Positions 48,243 through 64,000 of a stretch of 64,000 nt of DNA are shown in pieces. The notes beneath the pieces are model-generated. The model was not told the DNA's origin, made no database searches, and saw nothing but the letters and a program-made list of their open reading frames with translations. The DNA is from Microbacterium sp. BH-3-3-3 (GTDB lineage: Bacteria; Actinomycetota; Actinomycetes; Actinomycetales; Microbacteriaceae): NCBI RefSeq assembly GCF_001792815.1, contig NZ_CP017674.1, forward strand, positions 558,001-622,000, in the 5' to 3' direction. Position numbers and translations under genes: made by a program. How positions within the stretch are numbered: position 1 is the stretch's first letter; every line of letters begins with the position of its first letter.

Positions 48243-48713
48243 ATGGCTCCCCTCACTGATCGCACCGCCGCCCTCGACCGAGTGTCGAAGGCGATCGTCG
48301 AGCAGCTGCAGGAGGACGGGCGGCGCTCCTACTCCGAGATCGGCAAAGCCGTCGGTCTCAGTGAGACCGCCACCCGCCAGCGCGTGCAGAAGCTCCAGGA
48401 TGCCGGCATCCTGCAGATCGTGGCGGTCACCGACCCGCTGCAGCTCGGCTTCGCGCGCCAGGCCATGATCGGCGTGCGCGTCTCGGGCGACACCCGGGTC
48501 GCCGCCGCCGCGATGACCGAGCTGCCCGGCGTGACCTACGTGGTCTCCACGGCCGGGTCGTTCGACCTGCTCGTCGAGGTCGTCTGCGAGAGCGACGACG
48601 ACCTGATCGACCTGCTCAACGACCGCATCCGGTCGCTGCCCGACATCGTCTCGACCGAGACGTTCGTCTATCTGAAGCTCCACCGACAGCTCTACAACTG
48701 GGGAACGCGATGA
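48243..48713 (+). CDS. Lrp/AsnC-family transcriptional regulator
   Basis: The 156-residue product has an N-terminal helix-turn-helix (about 14-60): IVEQLQEDGRRSYSEIGKAVGLSETATRQRVQKLQDAGIL, and a C-terminal RAM ligand-binding domain (about 70-145) with AAAMTELPGVTYVVSTAGSFDLLVEVV. Its stop overlaps the start of the aminotransferase gene as ATGA, so it almost certainly controls that gene and the permease in response to an amino acid or amine. Confidence 0.93.
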   Translation: MAPLTDRTAALDRVSKAIVEQLQEDGRRSYSEIGKAVGLSETATRQRVQKLQDAGILQIVAVTDPLQLGFARQAMIGVRVSGDTRVAAAAMTELPGVTYVVSTAGSFDLLVEVVCESDDDLIDLLNDRIRSLPDIVSTETFVYLKLHRQLYNWGTR

Positions 48714-50104
48714 CCCTTCTCGACACCGATCTGCACACCGACCTCCAGGCCAAGGCCCGCGACCACCTGTGGATGCACTTCTCCCGCCAGTCGACGATGA
48801 CCGACGGCCCGGGTGTTCCCATCATCGTCAAGGGCGAAGGCCACCACATCTTCGACGCCACCGGCAAGAAGTACATCGACGGCCTCGCCGGTCTCTTCGT
48901 CGTCAACGCCGGTCACGGCCGTCGGCGCATCGCCCAGGCAGCGGCGAAGCAGGCCGAGGAACTGGCGTTCTTCCCCCTGTGGTCCTACGCCCACCCCGCC
49001 GCGATCCAGCTCGCCGAACGCCTCGCGCACCTCGCCCCCGGCGACCTGAACCACGTCTTCTTCTCCACCGGCGGCGGTGAGGCGGTCGAAACCGCCTTCA
49101 AGCTCGCCAAGCAGTACTGGAAGACGCAGGGCAAGTCCACCAAGCACAAGGTCATCTCGCGCGCGATCGCCTACCACGGCACGACGCAGGGCGCCCTGGC
49201 GATCACCGGCCTGCCGGTCATGAAGCACATGTTCGAACCCGTCACCCCCGGCGGCTTCCGGGTGCCGAACACCAACTACTACCGCGCCGAGGAGTCGGGC
49301 TTCGGGGGCGGGACGCCCGAGGAGTTCGGCCTGTGGGCCGCCGACCGCATCGAGCAGATGATCCAGTTCGAGGGCCCCGAGACGGTGGCCGCGGTGTTCC
49401 TGGAGCCGGTTCAGAACGCGGGCGGCTGCTTCCCCGCCCCGGCCGGGTACTTCCAGCGCGTGCGGGAGATCTGCGACAAGTACGACGTGCTCCTCGTCTC
49501 CGACGAGGTGATCTGCGCCTTCGGCCGACTCGGCCACTACTTCGGCGCGACCGCCTACGACTACCAGCCCGACATGATCACGTTCGCCAAGGCGGTCACG
49601 AGCGGCTACTCCCCCCTCGGCGGCACGATCATCAGCGACCGCATCTACGAGCCGTTCGCCCACGGCGACGCGACCTTCCCGCACGGCTACACCTTCGGCG
49701 GACACCCCGTCTCGGCGGCGGTCGCACTCGAGAACCTCGACGTGTTCGAAGAGGAGGGCCTGCTCGAGAACGTGCGCACGAACTCGCCGATCTTCCGCTC
49801 GACCCTCGAGCGGCTGAACGACCTGCCGATCGTCGGCGACGTGCGCGGCGACGGGTACTTCTTCGGCATCGAGCTCGTCAAGGACAAGGCGACCAAAGAG
49901 ACCTTCGACGACGACGAGTCCGAGCGCCTGCTGCGCGGCTTCCTGTCGAAGGCCCTCTTCGACGCCGGCCTGTACTGCCGTGCCGACGACCGGGGCGACC
50001 CCGTGATCCAACTCGCGCCGCCCCTCACCATCGGTCCCGCCGAGTTCGACGAGATCGAGCAGATCCTGCGTTCCGTCCTCACCGAGGCCTGGACCCGCCT
50101 CTGA
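48710..50104 (+). CDS. Class III aminotransferase (omega-amine/putrescine or GABA type)
   Basis: PLP-dependent enzyme of 464 residues. Motifs: KYIDGLAGLFVVNAGHGRRR, FFSTGGGEAVETAFKLA, YHGTTQGALAITG, AVFLEPVQNAGGCF, VSDEVICAFGRLG and the PLP lysine in ITFAKAVTSGYSPLGG. The pattern fits transaminases acting on terminal amines (putrescine, GABA or beta-alanine with pyruvate as acceptor). Flanking Lrp regulator and APC permease support an amine or amino-acid catabolic unit; exact substrate is not determined. Confidence 0.9.
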   Translation: MTLLDTDLHTDLQAKARDHLWMHFSRQSTMTDGPGVPIIVKGEGHHIFDATGKKYIDGLAGLFVVNAGHGRRRIAQAAAKQAEELAFFPLWSYAHPAAIQLAERLAHLAPGDLNHVFFSTGGGEAVETAFKLAKQYWKTQGKSTKHKVISRAIAYHGTTQGALAITGLPVMKHMFEPVTPGGFRVPNTNYYRAEESGFGGGTPEEFGLWAADRIEQMIQFEGPETVAAVFLEPVQNAGGCFPAPAGYFQRVREICDKYDVLLVSDEVICAFGRLGHYFGATAYDYQPDMITFAKAVTSGYSPLGGTIISDRIYEPFAHGDATFPHGYTFGGHPVSAAVALENLDVFEEEGLLENVRTNSPIFRSTLERLNDLPIVGDVRGDGYFFGIELVKDKATKETFDDDESERLLRGFLSKALFDAGLYCRADDRGDPVIQLAPPLTIGPAEFDEIEQILRSVLTEAWTRL

Positions 50105-50109
50105 CCCCC

Positions 50110-50140
50110 GGGATGCCGGCCCGACCGATGCCGGCATCCC
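50110..50140 (+). terminator. Hairpin after the aminotransferase gene
   Basis: Perfect 10-bp stem GGGATGCCGG/CCGGCATCCC with an 11-base loop, five bases after the stop, followed by TCTCCCGCTCCC. Confidence 0.6.
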
Positions 50141-50237
50141 TCTCCCGCTCCCACCCCTGAGCGGTGCTCCTGATGCTGTACCCGACACCATCCCGCTTCG
50201 CGCCGAGCGCGCGCGGCCGCACCCTCTTGGAGGAGCC

Positions 50238-51665
50238 ATGAACGACAACACCCGCGCCGCCACGGCCGCGCACACGAACTCGGGCGCGAAACTGGCCCGC
50301 ACCCTGGGACTCTGGTCGATCGTCGGCCTGGGCCTGGGGTACATGACCCCCACCGTCGTCTTCGACACCTTCGGTCTCGTCGCCGAGAAGACCGACAACG
50401 TCGTGCCCGCCGCCTACGCGGTCGCCCTCGTCGTGCTCGTGTTCACCGCCATCAGCTACGGAAAGATGGTCCGCGTCATCCCGAGCGCGGGCTCCGCGTA
50501 CACGTACGCCCGCGAGGCCATCCACCCGGGCGTCGGCTTCGTCGTCGGCTGGACCGCGCTGATCGACTACATGCTGCTGCCGATGGTGAACGCCCTCATC
50601 CTGCGCAGCTACATGGAGGCGCTCTTCCCCGACATCCCCGGCTGGATCTGGGTCGTCGTCTTCACCGCGGGCGTGACCCTCGTGATCTACCTGACCATGC
50701 GGGGCACCTCGAACGTCAACATGATCCTGCTGGTGTTCTCGATCCTCGTCATGACCGTCTTCGTCGTGATGGTCGTCGTGCAGCTCGTGGGTGGTGCGGG
50801 CGCGGGAACCGCCGTGTCGCTCGCCCCCTTCGCCCACAGCGAGGTGCAGTTCGGCGCCGTCTTGGCCGGAGCCACCGTCGTGTGCTTCTCGTTCATCGGC
50901 TTCGACGCGGTGTCGATGTACTCCGAAGAGGCGAAGACCCCCAAGGTCATGCCGCGGGCGATCCTGCTCACCCTCGTCGTCGGAGGCCTGATCTTCCTTG
51001 TCGCCTCGTACGTGACGCAGCTGCGCTTCCCCGACTCGACCGCGTTCCCTCCCGAGGCCATCGAGGACAGCACGCTTCCCGAGATCGGTGTGCAGGTCGG
51101 CGGCCCGGTGCTGCAGGCCGTGCTGACGGCGGCGGGCTTCGCCGCGACCCTCGCGTCGTGGCTCGCCTCGCACGCCTCGGTGTCGCGCATGCTCATGGTG
51201 ATGGGACGCAACAACGTGCTGCCGCGCCGCATCTTCGGTTTCATCAACCCGAAGACGCACACCCCCACGTTCTCGATCGTGATCGTCGGCGTCGTGAGCC
51301 TGCTCGCGATCCAGTTCACCCTCGAGCAGATCGCCGCGTACATCAACTACGGCGCACTCGTGGCGTTCTCGTTCGTCAACATCTCGGTCATCGCCTGGTT
51401 CGCGATCCGCCGGGGACTGCGCAAGACCCCCGGCGACATCGTGCGCTACATCGTGATGCCCACCATCGGCCTGCTGCTGACCGCTCTGCTGTGGGTCAAT
51501 CTCGACGGGCACGCCCTGATCGGCGGTCTCATCTGGACGGCGCTCGGGGTGGTCTACCTCGTGATCCTGACCCGCGGCTTCCGGCGTCCCATCGCCTCGT
51601 TCGACGAGAACCAGCCGGTGACGGGCGTGAACAAGACCGTCTCCGGTCCGCGCTCCGAGATCTGA
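50238..51665 (+). CDS. APC-superfamily amino acid/polyamine permease
   Basis: The 475-residue product has about 12 membrane segments. The first contains GLWSIVGLGLGYMTPTVVFDTFG (APC substrate-binding unwound helix), followed by IPSAGSAYTYAREAIHPGVGFVVGW and VCFSFIGFDAVSMYSEEAKTP, typical of amino-acid/GABA transporters. A GGAGGA ribosome site precedes ATG. It is separated from the aminotransferase by a hairpin and 133 bases but is probably under the same control. Confidence 0.9.
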   Translation: MNDNTRAATAAHTNSGAKLARTLGLWSIVGLGLGYMTPTVVFDTFGLVAEKTDNVVPAAYAVALVVLVFTAISYGKMVRVIPSAGSAYTYAREAIHPGVGFVVGWTALIDYMLLPMVNALILRSYMEALFPDIPGWIWVVVFTAGVTLVIYLTMRGTSNVNMILLVFSILVMTVFVVMVVVQLVGGAGAGTAVSLAPFAHSEVQFGAVLAGATVVCFSFIGFDAVSMYSEEAKTPKVMPRAILLTLVVGGLIFLVASYVTQLRFPDSTAFPPEAIEDSTLPEIGVQVGGPVLQAVLTAAGFAATLASWLASHASVSRMLMVMGRNNVLPRRIFGFINPKTHTPTFSIVIVGVVSLLAIQFTLEQIAAYINYGALVAFSFVNISVIAWFAIRRGLRKTPGDIVRYIVMPTIGLLLTALLWVNLDGHALIGGLIWTALGVVYLVILTRGFRRPIASFDENQPVTGVNKTVSGPRSEI

Positions 51666-51674
51666 GTCCCGACA

Positions 51675-51718
51675 TCACGGCCGCGGCCTCCCTCCGTACC
51701 GGGATGCCGCGGCCGTGA
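51675..51718 (+). terminator. Terminator of the APC permease gene
   Basis: 13-bp perfect stem TCACGGCCGCGGC with its complement around an 18-base loop, nine bases after the stop. Confidence 0.6.
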
Positions 51719-51841
51719 CGGTGCCGCCGCCGACCGGGGAGCGTGCCGAACTCCTGAGTCATCGCGGCCACACGCGGGCCATGAGCGGGAAAGCGGCTCG
51801 AACGGCCGGTTCATCCGGAGTCCGGCACGCTTCGCCGACGG

Positions 51842-51892
51842 CGTCAGCGCTCGAACGGCGTCAGCGCTCGAACGGTGTCAGCGCTCGAACGG
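51842..51892. repeat. Three tandem 17-bp repeats at the end of the XRE-cupin gene
   Basis: Period exactly 17 (TCA at 51844, 51861 and 51878). Each unit includes TCAGCGCTCGAACG, the complement of the last codons and stop of the gene, so the coding end is copied twice downstream. Each copy carries its own stop. Confidence 0.9.
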
Positions 51893-52471
51893 GGTGACCG
51901 CCCCGAGCACGACGGTCTCGCCGTCGTGGCCGTTCGCCCACCAGTGCGGGGCCGAGCAGCCGTAGGTCACGGTGTCGCCGGCGTGCAGCTCGACGCGCCG
52001 GTCGGCCTGGCAGACGACGAGGACGCCCGCCTCGACCGTCACCGTCTCGGTGCCGATGTGGCGGAACGGGCTGGCCTCGTTCGTGAACCCCGCCGGCAGG
52101 GTCGAGCGGATGAGCTGCAGCATCGATTCGCCCCGCGGCGTGAGCAGCTCGCGGACGGCGCGCTGGTGGGCCGGGGCGTCGGCGGCGGTGGGCATGACGT
52201 GACGCTTGGCGCGGGTCACCACGGCCAGCGGCACGGCGGGTTCGTCCAAGAGCTGTCCGACCGGGATGCCGAGCGCCCCGGCCAGACGCTGCAGGGACTG
52301 CAGCGAGGGGTTGCCGAGGCCGCGCTCGAGCTGGCTGACCAGCCCGAAGCTCACCCCGGCCTTCTCGGACAGGGCGTGCACGCTGAGGCCGAGGCGCTTG
52401 CGGGCATCGCGCACCGCGGCCCCGAGGGTCTCGACGGCGCGCTGCTCGTCGGCATCCGTGGCTCGAGTCAT
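51878..52471 (-). CDS. XRE-family regulator with C-terminal cupin domain
   Basis: The 197-residue product has an N-terminal helix-turn-helix (about 12-70: VRDARKRLGLSVHALSEKAGVSFGLVSQLERGLGNPSL) and a cupin domain (about 105-195) with GTETVTVEAGVLVVCQADRRVELHAGD and PHWWANGHDGETVVLG. Such regulators (SutR/PuuR type) sense small ligands and often control neighbouring transport genes. It lies 21 bases beyond the ABC transporter ATPase gene on the same strand, the last gene of that putative operon. Confidence 0.9.
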   Translation of the reverse strand: MTRATDADEQRAVETLGAAVRDARKRLGLSVHALSEKAGVSFGLVSQLERGLGNPSLQSLQRLAGALGIPVGQLLDEPAVPLAVVTRAKRHVMPTAADAPAHQRAVRELLTPRGESMLQLIRSTLPAGFTNEASPFRHIGTETVTVEAGVLVVCQADRRVELHAGDTVTYGCSAPHWWANGHDGETVVLGAVTPFER

Positions 52472-52492
52472 GACCGTGTCAGCGTATCGCCG

Positions 52493-54114
<1,622 letters not shown>

Positions 54115-54118
<4 letters not shown>

Positions 54119-55101
54119 CGTGTGCTCTTTCCGTCACGGTGCGTCGGAGTCGATCGGCGCGAGAGGGCGGCGGCGACGCGTTCTCGCCGGCGCTGGCCCT
54201 GGCGCGCTTCGATGATGGTGCGCTGGCGGGGGTCGAGGCCGTCGCGCAGACCGTCGCCCAGCAGGTTGAATGCGAGGGCGGTGACGAAGATCGCCGCTCC
54301 CGGGAACACGCTCATCCACCACGCCTGGGCGAGGAAGCCCTGCGCGGTGAACAGCATCCCGCCCCACGACGGCGCGGGCGGCTGGATGCCGAGGCCGAGG
54401 AACGACAGCGCCGCCTCGGAGAGGATCGCGAACGCGAGCGAGAGCGAGGTCTGCACCACCACCGGACCGCCGATGTTCGGCAGCACGTGGCGCACGAGGA
54501 TCATCGGGGCGGGCGTGCCCATGCTGCGCGAGACCTGCACGAACGGCGACGTCCGCAGCGACAACGTGCTGGCCCGGGCGACGCGGGCGAAGATCGGCGT
54601 GTAGACGACGCCGATGGCGATGGTCGTGGTGAGCATGCCCGGCTCGAAGATCGCGATGATGGCGAGCGCCAGCAGCAGCACGGGGAAGGCGAACATCACG
54701 TCGACCACGCGCATGAGGGTCGCATCGACCGCGCCGCCCGCGTAGCCGGCGACCACGCCCAGCAGCAGGCCCAGCACCAGCGCGAGGGCGACGGCGATCA
54801 CGGCGATCGTGAGCGACGTGGATGCCGCCCGCAGCACGCGCGAGAACACGTCGCGGCCGAGCTCGTCGGTGCCGAACCAGTGGGCCGGGCTCGGCGCGGC
54901 GAGCGCTCGGGAGACGTCGATCTCGTTCACGCCGTACGGGGCGATCCAGGGGGCGAGCAGCGCGGCGACCACGATGACCGCGAGCACGACGGCGGCGGCC
55001 ACGGTGAGGGGGTTCGCGGCGAGCAGGCGCCACGACGCCACGCGGGCGGGGGTCGCGGGCGCAGCCGCGGCGGGGACGAGGGCGGGGTCGGTGGCGCTCA
55101 T
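54115..55101 (-). CDS. Peptide ABC transporter permease, DppC type
   Basis: Membrane component of 328 residues with about six membrane segments: an N-terminal one (about 28-50), HWFGTDELGRDVFSRVL (OppC signature) and the EAA loop in SRSMGTPAPMILVRHVLPNI, then ALSFLGLGIQPPAPSWGGML. The C-terminal tail is basic. ATG at 55101 overlaps the upstream permease stop. Confidence 0.93.
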
Positions 55102-56063
55102 GCGGCTCGGATCCTCGGGTCGACGACGGCGTACAGCACGTCGACGATCAGGTTGACGACGATGAACATGACGGCCACCAGCAGCACGGCCCCCTGGATG
55201 AGGGGGTAGTCGCGCGCCGCGACCGCGTCGTAGACCAGGCGGCCGAGGCCCGGCCAGGCGAAGACCACCTCGACGACGATCACCCCGCCGAGGATGGTGG
55301 CGAGCTGGATGCCGGCGATCGTCAGCACCGGCACCAGTGCTCCGCGCACGATGTGCCGCGAGACGACGATGCGGCGGGGCAGCCCCTTCGACACCGCGGT
55401 GCGCACGTATCCGGCCGACGCCACGTCGATGACGGCCGCGCGGATGTAGCGCGTCATGATGGCGCCCGCGACGAGGCCCACGGTGAGTCCGGGCAGCGCG
55501 ACCTGTCGCAGCCACCCCGCCGGGTCGTCGGTCAGGGCGACGTACCCGCTGGCGGGGAGCCATCCGAGGGTCACGGAGAAGAGGGAGATCAGCAGCATCC
55601 CGAGCCAGAAGTCGGGGATCGAGACGCCGAACTGGCTGCTCACCCGCACGATGACGTCACTCACGCGTCCCTCGCGGAGGGCGGAGTACACCCCGGCGGG
55701 GAGCGAGATGAGCAGGGCGACGACGAGCCCGACGACGGCGAGGGACACCGTGGCGGGCAGGCGCTGGAGGAGGGTCGTGGTGATCGGCTGACCGTTTCGG
55801 AAGCTGACGCCGAAGTCGCCGGTGACGGCGTGCAGGACGTACGAGACGAACTGCTCGGGCAGGGGGCGGTCGAGACCGGACGCCGTACGCAGCGCCTCGT
55901 ACGCCTCGGGGGTGTACCGGGTGCCCAGGGCCAGCCGCACCGGGTCACCGGGGACGAGGTGCACCAGGGCGAACACGACGATCAGCACACCGAGCAGCAC
56001 CACGGCCGACGACAGCACGCGCGTGCCGATGAATCGGAGCACCTGTGCGGGGGCGATCCTCAT
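55098..56063 (-). CDS. Peptide ABC transporter permease, DppB type
   Basis: Membrane component of 321 residues with about six membrane segments: VLSSAVVLLGVLIVVFALVHLVPGDPVRL at the N-terminus, FGVSFRNGQPI, IPDFWLGMLLISLFS, the EAA loop in AVSKGLPRRIVVSRHIVRGA and FAWPGLGRLVYDAVAARDYPLIQG near the end. AGGAGGGA lies before ATG. A strong hairpin separates it from the binding-protein gene upstream. Confidence 0.94.
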   Translation of the reverse strand: MRIAPAQVLRFIGTRVLSSAVVLLGVLIVVFALVHLVPGDPVRLALGTRYTPEAYEALRTASGLDRPLPEQFVSYVLHAVTGDFGVSFRNGQPITTTLLQRLPATVSLAVVGLVVALLISLPAGVYSALREGRVSDVIVRVSSQFGVSIPDFWLGMLLISLFSVTLGWLPASGYVALTDDPAGWLRQVALPGLTVGLVAGAIMTRYIRAAVIDVASAGYVRTAVSKGLPRRIVVSRHIVRGALVPVLTIAGIQLATILGGVIVVEVVFAWPGLGRLVYDAVAARDYPLIQGAVLLVAVMFIVVNLIVDVLYAVVDPRIRAA

Positions 56064-56082
56064 GGGTCCCTCCTCTGTTCGA

Positions 56083-56115
56083 GCCGTGGGGGCGCCGACC
56101 CGGCGCCCCCACGGC
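56083..56115 (-). terminator. Strong hairpin between binding-protein and permease genes
   Basis: Perfect 15-bp GC-rich stem with a three-base loop, five bases after the binding-protein stop. No T-run. Hairpins in this position commonly keep the binding-protein mRNA more abundant than that of the membrane parts. Confidence 0.7.
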
Positions 56116-56120
56116 GGGGA

Positions 56121-57650
56121 TCACTTGTCGAGGCTGGTGCCGGCGAAGCGGATCGCGCGGTCGGCCCGGGTCTCGTACCCCGTCACGGCCGGCGACCACA
56201 CCTGGGTCACCGAGGGGTTGTAGAGGTAGATGTAGCTGGCCTTGTCGGCGATGATCGTCGCAGCGTCCGCGTACAGCTTCTTGCGGGCGTCGGCGTCGGT
56301 CTCGACCCGACCGGCGTCGAGCAGGCGGTCGACGTCGGGGTCCGAGAACTTCTGCGCGTTGCTCGCACCGTCGGTGTGGTGCTGGGAGTAGTAGAAGTCG
56401 TCGGGGTCGATGTTGCCGAGCCACCCCATCATCAACATGTCGAAGTTGCCGGAGTTCTGCTCGTCGAGCCAGGTGGAGAAGTCGGGCTGACGGATCTGCA
56501 CCTGGATGCCGAGGGGTTCGAGGTTGGCGGCGATGATCTGGGCCGCGGTCACGGTCTCGGGGTAGTCGCTCGTGGCGAGCAGGTCGAGCGTCCCGCCGGT
56601 GTACCCGGCCTCGGCGAGCAGCTGCTTCGCCTTATCGACATCGGTGGAGTACTGGTCGTACTCCGTGTACCAGACGCTCTGCGTCGGGATGGCGAGCTGG
56701 TTCTTCTCGGCGGTGCCGTAGCTGACGGCCTGCACGATGGCATCCCGATCGATGGCGTACGCGATCGCCTGGCGGACGCGCACGTCGCTCCACGGCTGCT
56801 TGGCCTCGTTGAGCGCGAGGTACCAGTAGTCGCTGGAGGGGGTGAGGCCGAGGGTCACCGCACTGTCGCTCCCGAGCTGCTCGACCTGCTGGGCGGGCAC
56901 CACGTCGGTCCAGTCTATGTCGCCGGCCTTGAGCGAGGCGAGGGCGGTCGCCGGTTCCGAGATGAAGCGGTACTCCACGCCGCCCAGCGACGGTGCGCCA
57001 CCCCAGTAGTCGGGGTTGGCGGTGAGGGTGATGTGATCGCCGGCGGTGTAGTCGCTGAGCGAGAAGGGGCCGGTGCCGACGGGCGCGGTGGTGATGTCGC
57101 CCGATTCGACGTTGGCCTTCTCGACGATCGCCATGCCCTTGAAGCCGCCGAGGTTCGACAGCAGGTTCGGGGTGGGCTGGGTGACGGTGATGACGACGGT
57201 GGCGTCGTCGGGGGCGGCGACGTCGGCGACGGTGGCGAACTTCCACGCGTTGGAGAGCTCTTCGTCGATGATGCGGCGGTAGGAGTAGACGACGTCTTCG
57301 CTGGTGAAGGCGGAACCGTCGTGGAACGTGACGCCGTCCCGCAGGTGGAAGGTCCACGTGAGCTGGTCGTCGCTGGTCTCCCAGCTCTCGGCGAGCGCGG
57401 GCTGCATCTCGAGCGCCGCGTCGGGCGCGACGAGGGTGTCGTAGACGTTCTCGAGCACCTCGAACGCGAAGTACGACGTCGTCTTCTGCGGGTCGAGCTG
57501 GTCGGGCTCACCGCCGATCGCGGCGACGAGGGTCTGGCCGGAGGCGGTGCCGGAGTCGCCGAGGTCCACGCCCTGACCGGCCGAGCAGCCGGCGAGGGCG
57601 AGGGTCGCGGCGAGCGCGCCGGCGATGCCGAGTGTGATGCGCGTGTTCAT
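56121..57650 (-). CDS. Oligopeptide-binding lipoprotein of ABC transporter (SBP family 5)
   Basis: Extracytoplasmic receptor of 509 residues. Lipoprotein signal with lipobox LALAGCSAG (Cys about residue 22). The mature domain has GGEPDQLDPQKTTSYF, TWTFHLRDGVTFHDGSAFTSEDVVYSY (family 5 signature), FSLSDYTAGDHITLTANPDYWGG and VRQAIAYAIDRDAIV. Ligands could be di-/oligopeptides or other solutes carried by the Dpp/Opp class. First gene of the transporter operon; no good ribosome site precedes the ATG. Confidence 0.94.
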   Translation of the reverse strand: MNTRITLGIAGALAATLALAGCSAGQGVDLGDSGTASGQTLVAAIGGEPDQLDPQKTTSYFAFEVLENVYDTLVAPDAALEMQPALAESWETSDDQLTWTFHLRDGVTFHDGSAFTSEDVVYSYRRIIDEELSNAWKFATVADVAAPDDATVVITVTQPTPNLLSNLGGFKGMAIVEKANVESGDITTAPVGTGPFSLSDYTAGDHITLTANPDYWGGAPSLGGVEYRFISEPATALASLKAGDIDWTDVVPAQQVEQLGSDSAVTLGLTPSSDYWYLALNEAKQPWSDVRVRQAIAYAIDRDAIVQAVSYGTAEKNQLAIPTQSVWYTEYDQYSTDVDKAKQLLAEAGYTGGTLDLLATSDYPETVTAAQIIAANLEPLGIQVQIRQPDFSTWLDEQNSGNFDMLMMGWLGNIDPDDFYYSQHHTDGASNAQKFSDPDVDRLLDAGRVETDADARKKLYADAATIIADKASYIYLYNPSVTQVWSPAVTGYETRADRAIRFAGTSLDK

Positions 57651-57675
57651 GTGGATGCCAATCGGGTGAGCGAAT

Positions 57676-57691
57676 CATCATTTAGATGATG
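57676..57691. promoter_or_regulatory. Perfect palindrome in the divergent transporter/DUF1028 promoter region
   Basis: CATCAT-ttag-ATGATG, 16 bases, 26 bases upstream of the binding-protein start, in an AT-rich patch of a GC-rich region. It is a likely operator; the XRE-cupin regulator at the end of the operon is the first candidate to bind it. Confidence 0.5.
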
Positions 57692-57810
57692 TTTCGATCA
57701 GTATGTGCAAGCATGGGGACGGACACAAGCCCCGGCCGGCACCGAAACACGATCTTCACAAACCGCCGTCGTCCCCCCGGGCGCCCCTCGCCGACCCCTC
57801 GGGAGCATCC

Positions 57811-58440
57811 ATGACCTTCACCGTCCTCGGCCGCGACCCTCTGCGCGGGCGGATCGGCGCCGCCACCGCGAGCAGATCGCTCGCCGTCGGCGCCTCGGTG
57901 CTCGCGGTCGCCCCGGCGGTGGGCGTCGTGGCGAGTCAGGCGTGGACCAACCGCTCGTTGCGTGCGCTGCTGCTCGACGAGATGCGGGCGGGATCCGACG
58001 CGGCCGCGGCGGTCGCGCGCGTCCCCGACTGGGACGACGGGTCGCGCCTGCGGCAGGTCGCCGTGCTCGGCTGGGCCGGCGACGGTGCGGCGCGCTCCGG
58101 CGCCGACATCACCGCCTGGGCGGGCCACCGGGTGGGGCCGGATGCCGTCTTCGTCGGCAACCTGCTCGTCGGCGGCGAGGTGCTCGAGGCGATGGCCGAG
58201 ACCTGGACGGCGACGGCCGGAATCGATCTGGCGGACCGGCTGCTGGAGACGCTCGCCGCGGGCGACGGGGCCGGGGGCGATGCGCGGGGCCGCCAGAGCG
58301 CCGCACTGCTGGTGGCCTCCCGCACAGACACCCTGCTCGATCTGCGCGTCGACGACCACACCGACCCTGTTCCGGAGCTGGCGCGCCTCCGCCGCCTCGC
58401 GGGGCAGGATGCCGAGGCACCCGCCCGCGCCCGGTGGTGA
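57811..58440 (+). CDS. DUF1028 family protein (Ntn-hydrolase-like)
   Basis: The 209-residue product begins MTFTVLGRDPLRGRIGAATASRSLAVG and continues with VGVVASQAWTNRSLRALLLDEM, FVGNLLVGGEVLEAMAETW and the C-terminal LLVASRTDTLLDLRVDDHTDPVPEL, the DUF1028 pattern. The family has an Ntn-hydrolase-like fold and is often found beside peptide transporters, suggesting amide or peptide breakdown; activity is unproven. ATG at 57811 follows GGGAG with five bases; upstream in-frame codons are not conserved. It ends six bases from the end of the convergent protease gene. Confidence 0.85.
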   Translation: MTFTVLGRDPLRGRIGAATASRSLAVGASVLAVAPAVGVVASQAWTNRSLRALLLDEMRAGSDAAAAVARVPDWDDGSRLRQVAVLGWAGDGAARSGADITAWAGHRVGPDAVFVGNLLVGGEVLEAMAETWTATAGIDLADRLLETLAAGDGAGGDARGRQSAALLVASRTDTLLDLRVDDHTDPVPELARLRRLAGQDAEAPARARW

Positions 58441-58446
58441 GGGGCG

Positions 58447-60009
58447 CTACGGCGCGGTGTACTCGGTGGTGACCGTCTCGGTCGTCGACGCCGTCCCCGC
58501 CGGCATCCGCACCGTGCCCGTGACGCTCACGCTGTAGGTGCGACCGGATGCCACCTCGGTGAAGACGGTCGATCCGTGAAGACCCGCGACGACCACGGGA
58601 TAGGCGCGACCGGTCGAGGTGTCGGTCACCGTCACCGAGAAGGCGGTGGGCGTGCCGATGTCGTTGGTGGTCCAGGCCAAGGCGACACCCGCGGGGTCGG
58701 CGGTGGCCGTCAGCGCGGTGATGCGGGGAACAGCGGGGAGGGCGGCCAGCAGGTTCGGCGTCCCGGCCGGGAGATCGGCCACGTGGCCGGTCGCCGCCGC
58801 CGTCGTCAGCGCGGCCTGCACCTCGGCCGGGCCCCACGCGGGGTGCAGCTGACGCAGACGGGCCGCGAGGCCGGCGACGTGCGGCGTGGCCATCGACGTC
58901 CCGTCGAACACCGCAGTCGAGGAGTCGAGGTAGGTCGAGGTGATCCCCGAGCCGGGGGCGAGGATGTCGACGCACGGACCGTAGTTGCTGTACCACGCGA
59001 GGGTGCGGCTCGAGTCGATCGCCCCGACGGTCAGCAGATCGGGAGCGCCGGCGGGCGAGACGTTGCACGCGTCCTGCGTCTCGTTGCCGGCGGCGACGAC
59101 GATCACGAAGCCGAGCTCGATCCCGTCGTCGATGATGTCGTCGACGAAGGCGTTGCGCGGCAGACCGAGGCTCATGTTGATGACCGCGTTCGCCCCGTCG
59201 TGGTTGTCGTAGATCCAGAACATGGCGTACAGCAGGGCGAGGCCCGAGCCCTCTCGACCACAGCCGAGCACGCGAACGGGCACGATTCGCACGTCTTTGG
59301 CGACGCCGTATGTGGTGCTGCCGACCGTGCCCGCCACGTGGGTTCCGTGACCGTTGCAGTCCTCGGTGCCCCGACCGTCGTCGACCTCGCTGTGACCGTT
59401 GGCGGCGTCGACGCGTCCCCCGAAGTCGGGATGCGAGGACTGCACGCCGCTGTCGACGATGAACGCCGTGACGCCGGCTCCCGTGGAGTCGTACAGGTAG
59501 TGGTCGTCGGTGAGCGCGGCGGTGTTGTCGACGGCGTCCAGACCCCACGAGGGGGTGGGGGTTTGATCCGCGGATGCCGTGACGATCTCGTTGGGCAGGA
59601 AGCGGGCCTCGGGGATCACCGCGAGGATCGCCGGCACCTCGGTGGCGGGCACGGCGACGTAGACCGTGTCGCCGCGCGTGACGGGGCTCACCTCCGAGAC
59701 GTCCGGCAGGGCGCGAAGCTGGTCGTAGCGCGCGGTCGGCACGGCGACGAGGTCGTACGACAGCTCGATCCGCAGCCGCTCCTCTTCGGTGGCGTCCGCG
59801 GGGATGCCGATCGCCTCCGACCACGACGGGGTCGCCGCCGCGACCGCGGGCGCCGGCGGCGGCGAGGCCGCGGCCTCCGGTGTCGGGGGGACGGAGGGCC
59901 ACACACCGACCACGCCGGCGGTGGTCAGCAGGGCCCCGACGATGCCGACCGCCCACCAGCGACGAGCACCGGACGGGCGACGCCCGGGCGGGCGAGGAGT
60001 GGGGGTCAC
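58447..60009 (-). CDS. Secreted subtilisin-like serine protease (S8) with propeptide and C-terminal FN3-like domain
   Basis: Exported protease of 520 residues. A membrane/signal segment (about 17-40) is followed by an I9-like inhibitory propeptide (about 65-145). The S8 domain (about 160-420) has catalytic Asp in FIVDSGVQSSHPDF, His in NGHGTHVAGTV, oxyanion Asn in VAAGNETQD and Ser in DGTSMATPHVAGLAA. The C-terminal domain (about 430-520) has alternating beta pattern with ALAWTTNDIGTP and TYSVSVTGTV, like fibronectin type III. GTG at 60009 has GGAG six bases before it. It follows the repeat-protein gene by 23 bases, same operon. Confidence 0.93.
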   Translation of the reverse strand: MTPTPRPPGRRPSGARRWWAVGIVGALLTTAGVVGVWPSVPPTPEAAASPPPAPAVAAATPSWSEAIGIPADATEEERLRIELSYDLVAVPTARYDQLRALPDVSEVSPVTRGDTVYVAVPATEVPAILAVIPEARFLPNEIVTASADQTPTPSWGLDAVDNTAALTDDHYLYDSTGAGVTAFIVDSGVQSSHPDFGGRVDAANGHSEVDDGRGTEDCNGHGTHVAGTVGSTTYGVAKDVRIVPVRVLGCGREGSGLALLYAMFWIYDNHDGANAVINMSLGLPRNAFVDDIIDDGIELGFVIVVAAGNETQDACNVSPAGAPDLLTVGAIDSSRTLAWYSNYGPCVDILAPGSGITSTYLDSSTAVFDGTSMATPHVAGLAARLRQLHPAWGPAEVQAALTTAAATGHVADLPAGTPNLLAALPAVPRITALTATADPAGVALAWTTNDIGTPTAFSVTVTDTSTGRAYPVVVAGLHGSTVFTEVASGRTYSVSVTGTVRMPAGTASTTETVTTEYTAP

Positions 60010-60032
60010 GGGTTCTCCTTCGTGCGGACGGC

Positions 60033-61397
60033 TCAACATGAGGGCGCCACGGATGCGAGGGGGATGACGATCTGGGACGACCCCGACGCCGCAGGCGCGG
60101 GGTACCCGACCGCGGCCACGCCGGTGGCGACCACGCCGTCGCCGTCGCGGTGGATGCTCTCGCCGAGCAGGAACAGGTCGGCACCGATCGGGGTCGCACC
60201 GTTCGGGACGGCCGTGGCTTCGCGCACGGTGTTGCCCGACACCATGAACAGCGCCGGCGCCCCCGCCGCGGTGACGACGGGCAGCAGGCGCTCGCCGATG
60301 TACGACGGGTTCGGGGTGAGGGTCCCCCACGACGCGATTCCCGTGGCCACGACACCGGCGCCGTAGGGGCAGTCGCCGTCCCAACTCACCCGGTAGATCG
60401 AGCCGTCGGCGGCGAACAGGTCGCCGGCGACCGGCGTCGCGCCCGGCGGTGGTCCCGCGGGACCGCCGAACTCGAAGGCGGCGCGCGTCTCGTCGAGCGG
60501 GGTGCGCAGCAGTCGCGGCGTCCCGTCCAGGGCGCGGTAGGGCAGCTCGAACTGTCCGGTGCCGCCCGCGCCCTGCTCGTGCTCGAGCAGCTGGCCGTAG
60601 GCGGAGACATCGGTGGCGATCGCGACACCGGCGCGGTACACGGTCGTGCCCGCCAGGAACAGATCGGCCGCCACGGGCGTCGCCCCGGAGGGGACGCCGA
60701 CGACGGGGACGACCGTTCCGGCCTGCGTGTCGTAGACCGCGGCGGAGCCGTCTTCGAGGCGCAGGGGCAGCAGGAAGGCCCCGTTCTTCGCGGGCGCCTC
60801 GGCGAGGGCGCCTGCGGCTGCCACCTCGGCGTGCACGACGCCGACACCGGCGCGGTAGAGCGCGGCGTCGTGCAGGAAGAGGTCGTGGGCGAGGGGTACC
60901 GCCCCCGCGGGCACGAGCGAGACCGCCGACAGCGTCCCCGGCGTCGTCAGCAGCCGGCCGCTGAACGCGGTGAGGGTGGCCGAAGCACTCGTCGCGCCAC
61001 TCGCCGAGGCGGCGAGGGTGCCGGTCGCGCCGCTGCCCGGAACGTGGATGGTGCCGCACGGGGCGGTGCCGTCGGCGTCGGTGACGACGGTGGCCGTGAC
61101 GGCGGCCGCATCGAAGGTGTAACCGTCGGAGAGCTGGAGCACCACGCTCACCCCCGCCTGGGGGACGCCGCCCGTGGCCGCGTGGACGACGGCGTCGGTG
61201 ATGTCCTCGCACGGCACTCCCGCGTATGCGCCGGACGAGAACGACAACGTCACCCCCGACACCGCGAAGGCCGGGCTCGTGACCACGAGCGCGATCGCGG
61301 GAACCGCCCACGTGCCCGCCACCACCACGGCGCGCCGACTCGGGACGGCACCGGACAGATCGATCCGAGCCCGGGGGCCGTCGAGGTTGTGACGCAC
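60033..61397 (-). CDS. Secreted four-repeat protein of unknown function
   Basis: The 454-residue product is not recognised. The N-terminus has twin arginines in PSRRAVVVAG followed by a hydrophobic segment ending SPAFA, a possible Tat signal (about 18-45). Residues about 47-145 look like a bacterial Ig-like beta domain with Cys63 and Cys114. Four repeats of about 75 residues follow (about 163, 237, 317 and 398), each starting near PxGAxP then DLF, YR or HR, and GVVATG-like strands; the last is shortened. Cys343 and Cys454 may pair. GTG start with GGAAGGA six bases before it. It probably forms a surface structure, and its operon partner is the S8 protease. Confidence 0.75.
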   Translation of the reverse strand: MRHNLDGPRARIDLSGAVPSRRAVVVAGTWAVPAIALVVTSPAFAVSGVTLSFSSGAYAGVPCEDITDAVVHAATGGVPQAGVSVVLQLSDGYTFDAAAVTATVVTDADGTAPCGTIHVPGSGATGTLAASASGATSASATLTAFSGRLLTTPGTLSAVSLVPAGAVPLAHDLFLHDAALYRAGVGVVHAEVAAAGALAEAPAKNGAFLLPLRLEDGSAAVYDTQAGTVVPVVGVPSGATPVAADLFLAGTTVYRAGVAIATDVSAYGQLLEHEQGAGGTGQFELPYRALDGTPRLLRTPLDETRAAFEFGGPAGPPPGATPVAGDLFAADGSIYRVSWDGDCPYGAGVVATGIASWGTLTPNPSYIGERLLPVVTAAGAPALFMVSGNTVREATAVPNGATPIGADLFLLGESIHRDGDGVVATGVAAVGYPAPAASGSSQIVIPLASVAPSC

Positions 61398-61650: not shown

Positions 61651-61656
61651 TAGACT
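61651..61656 (+). promoter_or_regulatory. Candidate leaderless -10 box of jetA
   Basis: TAGACT, seven bases, then the GTG start at 61664; nearly the same sequence precedes the PASTA kinase gene. Confidence 0.5.
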
Positions 61657-61663
61657 CGAGCCA

Positions 61664-63139
61664 GTGAGCAGCACCCGAACCGAAGCCGCGTACCTGCGCT
61701 CGGTGACGGCGTTCAAGAACCCCACGCTCGACCTGCTGCACGGGCGCTTCGCCCCCTTCGTCGTGGCCGTGCTCTCGGTGGTCTTCACCCCCGACCGCGC
61801 GGCGGTCACCGTCGCCGACGCGCACGTCGAGGTCGCCGAGGCCATCGACGAGCTGCGCGCGGCGGGCTACGACACCGACGACGACCGCCGCATCCCCGCG
61901 GGGTCGGCGCGCGAGATCTGTCGCGGCTGGGTGCGCGTGGGCTGGCTCGGTCTGCAGATCGAGGACGACGTCGAGGTGTACCGCCTCTCGGCGCACGCCG
62001 TGGGCGCTCTCGAGATCGCCGGTCGCGCCGGCGGCGGCCGCGCCCGTGTCTCCCGCTCGCGCGTGCGCACGCTTCTCGACGCGGTCGAGCGCCTCGCCCG
62101 CGACGCCGAGAGCGACCCCGCCCGACGCCGCGAGGCACTTCTCGAGGAGCGGGCGGCCCTCGATGCCGAGATCGCCGCGCTGGAGGAGGGCGTCGTCGAG
62201 CCCCTCGACGACGACCACCTGCTCGAAGAGGCCGAGAACGTCATCCACCTCGCGCGCGAGTTGCCCGCGGACTTCTCGCGCGTGGCGGAGTCGATCGCCG
62301 CGATGCAGCGCGACGTCGTCGCCGAGCTCCGCCGCGACGTGCGTCCCACCGGCGAGGTGCTGCGCGAGTATCTCGAGCGCGGGCGTCAGGTGATGCAGGC
62401 CACCCCCGAGGGTCGAGCCTTCCAGGGCGCGCTGCGTCTGATCGGCGACCCCGAGAACATCGACGACCTCACCGACCAGCTGCACGCCGTGCTCGCCCAG
62501 CCCTTCTCGCGGCTGATGACCCCCGACCAGCGGGCCGAGCTCGACGCCATCGCCCGGCGCGTCGAAGCGGGCGTGCAAGAGGTGCTCACCGCCCAGCGGC
62601 GGGCCTCGCACGTCATCACCGCGCAGGTGCGCACGCACGATCCCATCCGCGATCGCCAGGTCGACGACCTGCTGCGCGGCGTGATGGCGGGGCTCCACCG
62701 CTGGAGCCAGACCAAGACGCCCGGTCGCGTCGAGCCCGTGCGCACGCTCCCGCTCGCCGACATCGGGCACCTGCGCCAGTCGCTCAGCGACGTGCGTCCG
62801 GCCGGGGCGCCGGCGCCGTTGGCATCGGCAGACGTCGAGGCCGAGTTCGTCGACGCCGACACCCGCGCCTGGGGCGGCCCGCACTACGCCGAGCTCGAGG
62901 CGTACGTCGCCACGCTCGGCGACGGCTTCGATCTGGCGACCGCCTTCTCGGGCGGCTCCGCCGACACCCGCCGCCCGGTCGATCTGGTCGGCCTGCTCGA
63001 GATCGTGCATCGCGGGGGGCTCACCGAGACCGACGACGTCTCGATCGTCGAGGCCGTACGCCCCGACGGCACCACCCGGCGCTTCGCCTTCGGGGCGGTC
63101 AGAGCGAACAGCTTGCGAGAAAGGGATGCCGATGACTGA
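61664..63139 (+). CDS. jetA: Wadjet anti-plasmid system protein JetA (DUF3375, MksF/MukF-like)
   Basis: Kleisin-like subunit of the SMC-type complex that recognises small circular DNA. The 491-residue product matches DUF3375: N-terminal winged-helix region with [35 protein letters not shown], then a long helical section (about 130-240) with [40 protein letters not shown], and [21 protein letters not shown]. The C-terminal half contains [22 protein letters not shown] and [18 protein letters not shown] at 61664 was chosen because upstream codons lie in promoter sequence. Its last bases overlap jetB. Confidence 0.88.
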
Positions 63140-63986
63140 CGAGGACGTGTTCGCACCCTCCCGCGCGCGCCACGGCGCCGACGCCCCCGCTTCCTCGACG
63201 ACGGCACCATCGCCGGATGCCGAGGTCTCCCCCGGCGGCACGGAGTCCTCCGCCTTCATCGCCCCGGTCGCGATGGAGAACGACCCCGACGCGCTGTTCC
63301 CGGGAGATCGCGGCATCCTGGACTCCGAGGTGCGGCGCGTGCTCGTGCGCATCCTGCAGCGCCGGTTCCTGAGCGCCGAGAACTCCCCCGCCGAGTGGAA
63401 GCTGCTGCTCGAGCACCAGCAGATGATCGAGTCGCGTCTGAACGATCTATTCGTGCGGCTCGTCGTCGACCACGCGCGGGGCGTCGCGTACAAGGAGCAG
63501 GTGCGCAGCGACGAGATCGACGTGCCCATCCTGCTGAAGGACGAGGCGTACTCGCGCGCCGAGACGCTCGTGCTCGTGTACCTGCGGACGGTGTTCCAGC
63601 GCGAGACGACCGCCGGCACCGCGTCGGCGCGCGTCGACGTCGAAGAGGTCGAGCAGACCGTGCTGACGTATTTCGCCGAGACCGACGGCACGCGCGCCAG
63701 TCAGCAGCGGGCCGTGCGCACCGCGATCGCGCGACTGGACCGCGAGGGCATCATCGAGGAGGAGTCCGAGGGGCGGTACCGCATCGGACCGCTCATCGAG
63801 GTCGTGCTCAGCGCCGAGACGCTTCGCGAACTGCAGCTCTGGTTGGACGAGCAGACCCAGGATGCCGGGAGCCCACGCGAGGGCGGCGTCGTGGCACCCG
63901 CTCTCGACGAGCAGACACAGGATGCCGAGGCTGCCGGTGACCGCGAGGTCGCGGCATCCGGAACGTTCGAGGGAGACCCCCGATGA
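63132..63986 (+). CDS. jetB: Wadjet system protein JetB (DUF4194, MksE/MukE-like)
   Basis: KITE-type subunit binding JetA and the SMC ATPase. The 284-residue product has an unusually long N-terminal extension rich in Ala/Ser/Pro/Asp (about 1-60), then the DUF4194 core (about 62-240): [76 protein letters not shown] and [15 protein letters not shown]. The C-terminal tail carries a duplicated [11 protein letters not shown] at 63132 has AAGGG upstream at good distance and overlaps the end of jetA; an ATG two codons earlier is possible. Confidence 0.87.
63846..63927. repeat. Duplicated segment in the 3' part of jetB
   Basis: 22-base near-identical copies at 63846-63867 and 63906-63927 (one mismatch), exactly 60 bases apart, both in frame and encoding DEQTQDA. 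Confidence 0.8.
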
Positions 63987-64000
63987 CCATGCTCGAGACC
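63983..64000 (+). CDS. jetC: Start of presumed jetC (SMC-like ATPase), cut by the window edge
   Basis: ATG overlaps the jetB stop as ATGA and opens the reading frame MTMLET, which runs off the right edge. Only six codons are visible, so identity rests on the fixed order jetA-jetB-jetC-jetD of Wadjet operons and on translational coupling, not on sequence. Confidence 0.55.

Follow-up and report, generated by a model that had tools for sequence, protein, structure and literature searches.

The closest described relatives of the operon analysed here are the type I Wadjet systems (JetABCD, also named MksFEBG or EptABCD) and the Mks complexes. In Pseudomonas aeruginosa, MksBEF is a three-subunit, MukBEF-like SMC complex without MksG, and according to a review it is the likely product of JetD loss from JetABCD (PMC10586767). 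In Corynebacterium glutamicum, MksG executes plasmid defence (PMC10123090), and the MksBEFG complex has been described as acting only on non-chromosomal DNA (PMC7083940). In the literature we searched, with most subscription papers and preprints lying outside, none of the titles and opening abstract lines listed deals with a JetD-less JetABC in Microbacteriaceae, and only a Paenarthrobacter genome paper brings up Wadjet together with Microbacterium.

The operon lies at the right edge of the window (the 64,000-nucleotide stretch of DNA that was analysed, G000:C1:558001-622000), in a complete genome of 3.51 Mb on a single contig. It resembles type I Wadjet in the order, overlaps, lengths and profile matches of JetA, JetB and JetC, but differs in that the nuclease JetD was found neither in the locus nor in the genome. 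Its three-subunit composition without MksG is like that of P. aeruginosa MksBEF; however, its JetB scores higher against DUF4194 (134.2 bits) than against MksE (34.5 bits), and the losses of JetD seen here fell within actinobacteria. With C. glutamicum MksBEFG it shares actinobacterial kleisin, KITE and SMC subunits, whereas C. glutamicum retains MksG. We consider it probable that the operon encodes a nuclease-free, Wadjet-derived SMC-kleisin-KITE complex that acts on DNA without cleavage by JetD, with its client left unspecified.

The jetABC operon and its neighbours

The initial annotation placed the beginning of a Wadjet operon here, assigning the first two genes to DUF3375 and DUF4194, and both assignments hold. 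The mksF-like jetA (61664..63139, + strand) starts with GTG and encodes a kleisin of 491 aa that matches DUF3375 (Pfam PF11855, 364.8 bits, cut-off 28.6) and PADLOC JetA1 (PDLC00464, 718.9 bits). It overlaps by 8 bp with the mksE-like jetB (63132..63986, + strand), whose 284-aa KITE product matches DUF4194 (PF13835, cut-off 32.7), PADLOC JetB1 (376.2 bits) and, at the lower score given above, MksE (PF21980, cut-off 27). NCBIfam profiles gave no match for JetA or JetB. The third frame, whose start shares an ATGA with the stop codon of jetB, had been proposed as jetC, and an SMC-like ATPase of about 1100 residues was to be sought downstream. Only its start (63983..64000, + strand) lies in the window; the whole frame (L002:3984-7337) extends past the window edge and encodes an mksB-like SMC ATPase of 1117 aa with a score of 1702.4 bits against PADLOC JetC1. 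L002 is the host genome to 15 kb beyond the window, with frames listed throughout and letters read to L002:14000. The nearest JetC relatives in named records are from Microbacterium, M. testaceum included, at 92-93% identity, which makes a Microbacterium host very probable.

The ATPase motifs of JetC are intact (Walker A GGSGSGKS, signature KSGGES, Walker B PVFLDEA). The general patterns for Walker A (G....GK[ST]), the signature and Walker B were present in all 144 near-full JetCs, a few of them JetD-bearing; a strict Walker A pattern missed 24 of the 144, which show T instead of S or A in the loop, or a further variant. Every PDB chain with a sequence match carries the name JetB (3 distinct sequences, E<=0.01) or JetC (4, E<=0.001). 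The JetB alignments to these chains begin past the N-terminus, and the published IFDR motif of JetB is not mappable here. The N-terminal extension of JetB that had been described as disordered is present and is not featureless, because it holds a conserved segment at residues 42-61, FI.PVAME.D followed by F.GD.G; in the tier-1 loci, F.GD.G occurs in 124/125 and FI.PVAME.D in 102/125. The C-terminal duplication noted earlier is also there, as a repeat of LDEQTQDA. Since this element is single in the eight relatives compared, the repeat looks like a local oddity of this JetB.

The leaderless-looking promoter was likewise borne out: a TAGACT -10 box (61651..61656, + strand) is followed by 7 bases and then by the GTG of jetA. 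Across 131 related loci, a set that contains JetD-bearing loci too, a TAnnnT box stands 6-9 bases ahead of the chosen JetA start 116 times, with a spacing of exactly 7 in 90 of those cases, and occurs elsewhere in the 60 bases upstream of that start only 7 times in all. The leaderless promoter is kept across related loci.

Divergent from jetA and adjoining it is a pair of genes on the - strand, encoding a 454-aa protein (60033-61397) with no Pfam match and, presumably, a twin-arginine-like signal, and an S8 subtilase (58447-60063; PF00082, 163.6 bits). These had been taken for Wadjet accessories, and nothing marks either gene as such. In 10 further loci of the comparison a homologue of the 454-aa protein adjoins jetABC, and each of these loci has a JetC scoring >2190 bits to this JetC; S8 fragments lie beyond the homologue in several of the 10; none was seen in the remaining fetched loci, in which about 2 kb was covered on that side. 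The recurrence of these neighbours in close relatives fits a shared chromosomal position. Further out, the window at 48710-58440 holds what we take to be an aminotransferase, a permease, a helix-turn-helix regulator, a peptide-type ABC transporter and, last, a small enzyme-like gene (no NCBIfam match), which together presumably resemble an amine or peptide uptake cluster.

On the other side of the operon, jetC is followed by about 340 bases, which we take to include transposase remnants although no database match supports them, then by a small opposite-strand gene, presumably glyoxalase-like (NCBIfam gave no match), and a DUF222/HNH protein. Neighbour clustering and next-gene tabulation over the fetched loci revealed no fixed fourth gene after jetC: the next gene is on the same strand in 69 loci (within 60 bp in 13) and on the opposite strand in 71, as counted with a crude gene caller (codon-position GC) that missed some genes. 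The largest neighbour cluster covers 23 loci and holds a DUF222-like gene.

JetD in this genome and across relatives

A TOPRIM nuclease gene (DUF3322/DUF2220) had been expected downstream, with its absence named as a refutation, and this is where the locus departs from the annotated system, since no JetD follows jetC. A scan of five proteins beginning with JetC gave no match to a nuclease of the JetD kind, and the complete genome gave 0 matches at E<=10 to PF09983 (JetD_C), PF11795 (DUF3322) and PF09664 (DUF2399). As controls, C. glutamicum scored over the cut-off for JetD_C, and one of four control genomes giving a match did so for DUF3322; the DUF2399 negative is weak, because no control genome exceeded the cut-off. 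With JetD found neither in the locus nor in the genome, a complete four-gene Wadjet was rejected; the jetABC part of the earlier claim stands and the jetD part does not, so that an anti-plasmid system cleaving small circular DNA is unsupported for this operon.

The same absence recurs in the genus. The 366 genomes of the genus set include 170 with DUF3375 (PF11855, all types together) and 47 with JetD_C. Among the matches listed, we took as comparison set the 115 same-genus loci in the JetA score class of this locus, leaving out weaker-scoring ones, and added as references 20 regions with JetD of other types. At least 1.44 kb is present after jetC in 106 of the 115 loci, and these hold a whole JetD in 2 (L081 and L082) and a broken one in 1 (L075). 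In 99 of those 115 genomes there is no JetD_C match at E<=0.001 anywhere. The other 16 do give some JetD_C match, in 14 cases >100 bits, and for 12 of those 14 the match does not come from a fetched locus with a whole JetD, as would be expected if a complete Wadjet had a JetD lying outside the operon or too diverged to be seen. We nevertheless regard such a missed JetD as very improbable, given that three profiles found nothing in the genome itself at E values up to 10, that the scan from jetC onwards yielded no nuclease of this kind, and that JetD_C does detect JetD in all four close family genomes having one.

Wider sampling gives a similar picture. In the family set (398 genomes, including a few of the same genus), JetC was found in 102 and JetD_C in 48. 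Outside the genus, JetD occurs in 4 of the 16 nearest loci (65-72% identity) and in 2 of the 23 loci taken, out of 38, from the next class (37-40% identity). Among 79 named-record loci, many of them from genomes already in the genus and family sets, JetD matches were obtained in three, namely a whole JetD in Schumannella soli (L269), a broken one in M. helvum (L267) and one split over two frames in Agromyces humi (L311); 4 of the 79 end <1 kb past jetC. At the order level, DUF3375 occurs in 93 of 228 genomes and is joined by JetD_C in 45 of the 93 (a hand count from listings). The absence of JetD is, on these sequence counts, a lineage state and not a local accident. Within the order-level sample, 14 of the 16 DUF3375 genomes of family f12 had no JetD_C match (again counted by hand), a hint that another large group without JetD may exist, built on a different JetA type.

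In all, 139 JetD-less loci (this one, 104 from the genus, 33 from the family and 1 more distant) extend at least 1.44 kb past jetC. A remnant search with trimmed JetDs and composition correction found JetD remnants in 3 of them, L075, L098 and L096. In L098, a JetD-like start follows intact jetC (E 2.8e-4, partly overlapping the jetC end) and then breaks off. L096 (G203:C1) has an intact JetABC and, about 3.4-4 kb downstream, short pieces of jetC and of the end of a jetD, which look like traces of another Wadjet. L082 (G181:C22) presents the reverse case, with jetD whole and jetC split over two frames. L137 (G287:C1:3761040-3775040) holds two systems in tandem, first a JetD-less JetABC and then a distantly related four-gene JetABCD. 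Several JetD-bearing genomes seemed to have JetD in two pieces; we judged this an artefact of the JetD profile, because its first ~55 positions derive from frames that were taken stop to stop and so run into the 3' end of jetC.

Loss of JetD and retention of JetABC

In this JetC class the JetDs make up a single clade, whose sister is the clade of JetDs from the next class, and the same split appears in the JetC tree. The main divisions are common to the two trees, which differ in detail within the class: L081 partners with L200 on the JetD tree and with L201 and L202 on the JetC tree, and L082 is placed elsewhere. The JetC tree has 169 tips, 28 of them JetD-bearing, of which 20 are references picked for having JetD. 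On it, JetD must have changed at least 9 times when gains and losses cost the same; with regain forbidden, the number of losses rises to 24. A root with JetD came out less costly under every gain cost tried, by only one step (9 vs 10) when the costs were equal. Sister pairs that differ in JetD are L081/L098, L213/L212 and L082/L120 (the L082 JetC being only a piece), and large JetD-less clades comprise 34, 21 and 19 tips. At the level of gene trees, this history shows JetD to have been lost repeatedly in relatives of the operon.

Within the Microbacteriaceae part of the tree sit the JetCs of seven records named otherwise, four from Corynebacterium (one a MAG), one from Actinomyces bowdenii and two from Tessaracoccus, with 64-69% identity to the query JetC and no JetD match at their loci. 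The simplest reading is that JetABC without JetD would have moved horizontally between genera; record names can be wrong.

Loss of the nuclease could have left a disarmed relic in which JetABC is drifting to decay. Scraps of JetD do adjoin JetABC in L075, L098 and L096, and in L108, L203 and L210 no single frame spans the whole of JetB. However, 137 of the 147 JetD-less loci have an open, nearly full-length frame for each of JetA, JetB and JetC; of the remaining 10, 7 are truncated at contig ends and only those three carry the JetB defect. The median dN/dS over 30 close pairs (Nei-Gojobori; JetC 88-98.5% identical per pair, each locus used once) is 0.097 for JetA, 0.098 for JetB and 0.101 for JetC; four JetD-bearing reference pairs gave 0.074, 0.139 and 0.149, respectively. 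These substitution ratios show JetABC to be kept under purifying selection in JetD-less loci. The relic explanation, already weakened by this selection test and opposed also by the size of the JetD-less clades, is in our view quite unlikely. JetABC is kept intact without JetD and therefore probably works without cutting DNA.

If the nuclease had simply left, its docking surface might have decayed. We saw no relaxation in JetD-less loci at those residues of JetA, JetB and JetC that are invariant in JetD-bearing relatives: among 200 divergence-matched control draws, conservation was equal or lower in 59 for JetA, 149 for JetB and 37 for JetC, and decay of a JetD-binding surface was not seen. This counts against the nuclease-free reading, since an old loss of JetD might have produced some decay. 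It leaves room for another partner, or the sites may serve the motor itself. A different nuclease, encoded elsewhere, would accord with these unrelaxed residues and with the JetB N-terminal segment kept in JetD-less loci, and the complex would then still be a cleaving anti-plasmid system. We hold this to be unlikely: there is no conserved neighbour gene, the genome has no JetD_C, DUF3322 or DUF2399 match, and a partner in trans would be needed in every genome that receives the three-gene unit.

Possible activity and clients of the complex

Our preferred reading remains the nuclease-free complex. A type I Wadjet ancestor would have lost JetD and so become a three-subunit JetABC complex. Judging from homology and the intact motifs, JetC dimers together with JetA and JetB would remain an ATP-hydrolysing complex able to bind DNA and to translocate or extrude loops; without JetD, the bound DNA would presumably be compacted, tethered or silenced instead of cleaved. 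The client may be the chromosome, like that of Pseudomonas MksBEF, or may be small extrachromosomal DNA.

Two further observations also count against the nuclease-free reading. PF11855 is patchy in the genus (all types counted), unlike a housekeeping condensin, and canonical SMC and ScpA are also present in this genome. ScpA scores 157.9 bits; the SMC_N halves sit at opposite ends of the contig, the contig-start half scoring 376.9 bits to SMC_prok_B over the C-terminal half of the profile, and we infer that the canonical SMC gene spans the join of the circular chromosome. The patchy distribution, together with the transfer, suggests an accessory, possibly anti-element role. Because patchiness and transfer pull one way and the unrelaxed sites another, our confidence covers a nuclease-free function and does not fix the client. 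A more specific proposal, which we put forward tentatively and as less than probable, is that the JetD-less JetABC acts on its own, as a horizontally transferred, non-cleaving system against extrachromosomal DNA. The motor would recognise small circles by extruding them completely, after which it would hold, compact or silence them. If this is true, repeated nuclease loss would represent a switch from cutting to silencing.

For annotation, the presence of JetA, JetB and JetC should not be equated with plasmid cleavage. The actinobacterial loci provide natural replicates of JetD loss, with sister pairs with and without JetD and large clades that keep JetABC, and such replicates make the role of the Wadjet motor after nuclease loss directly testable.
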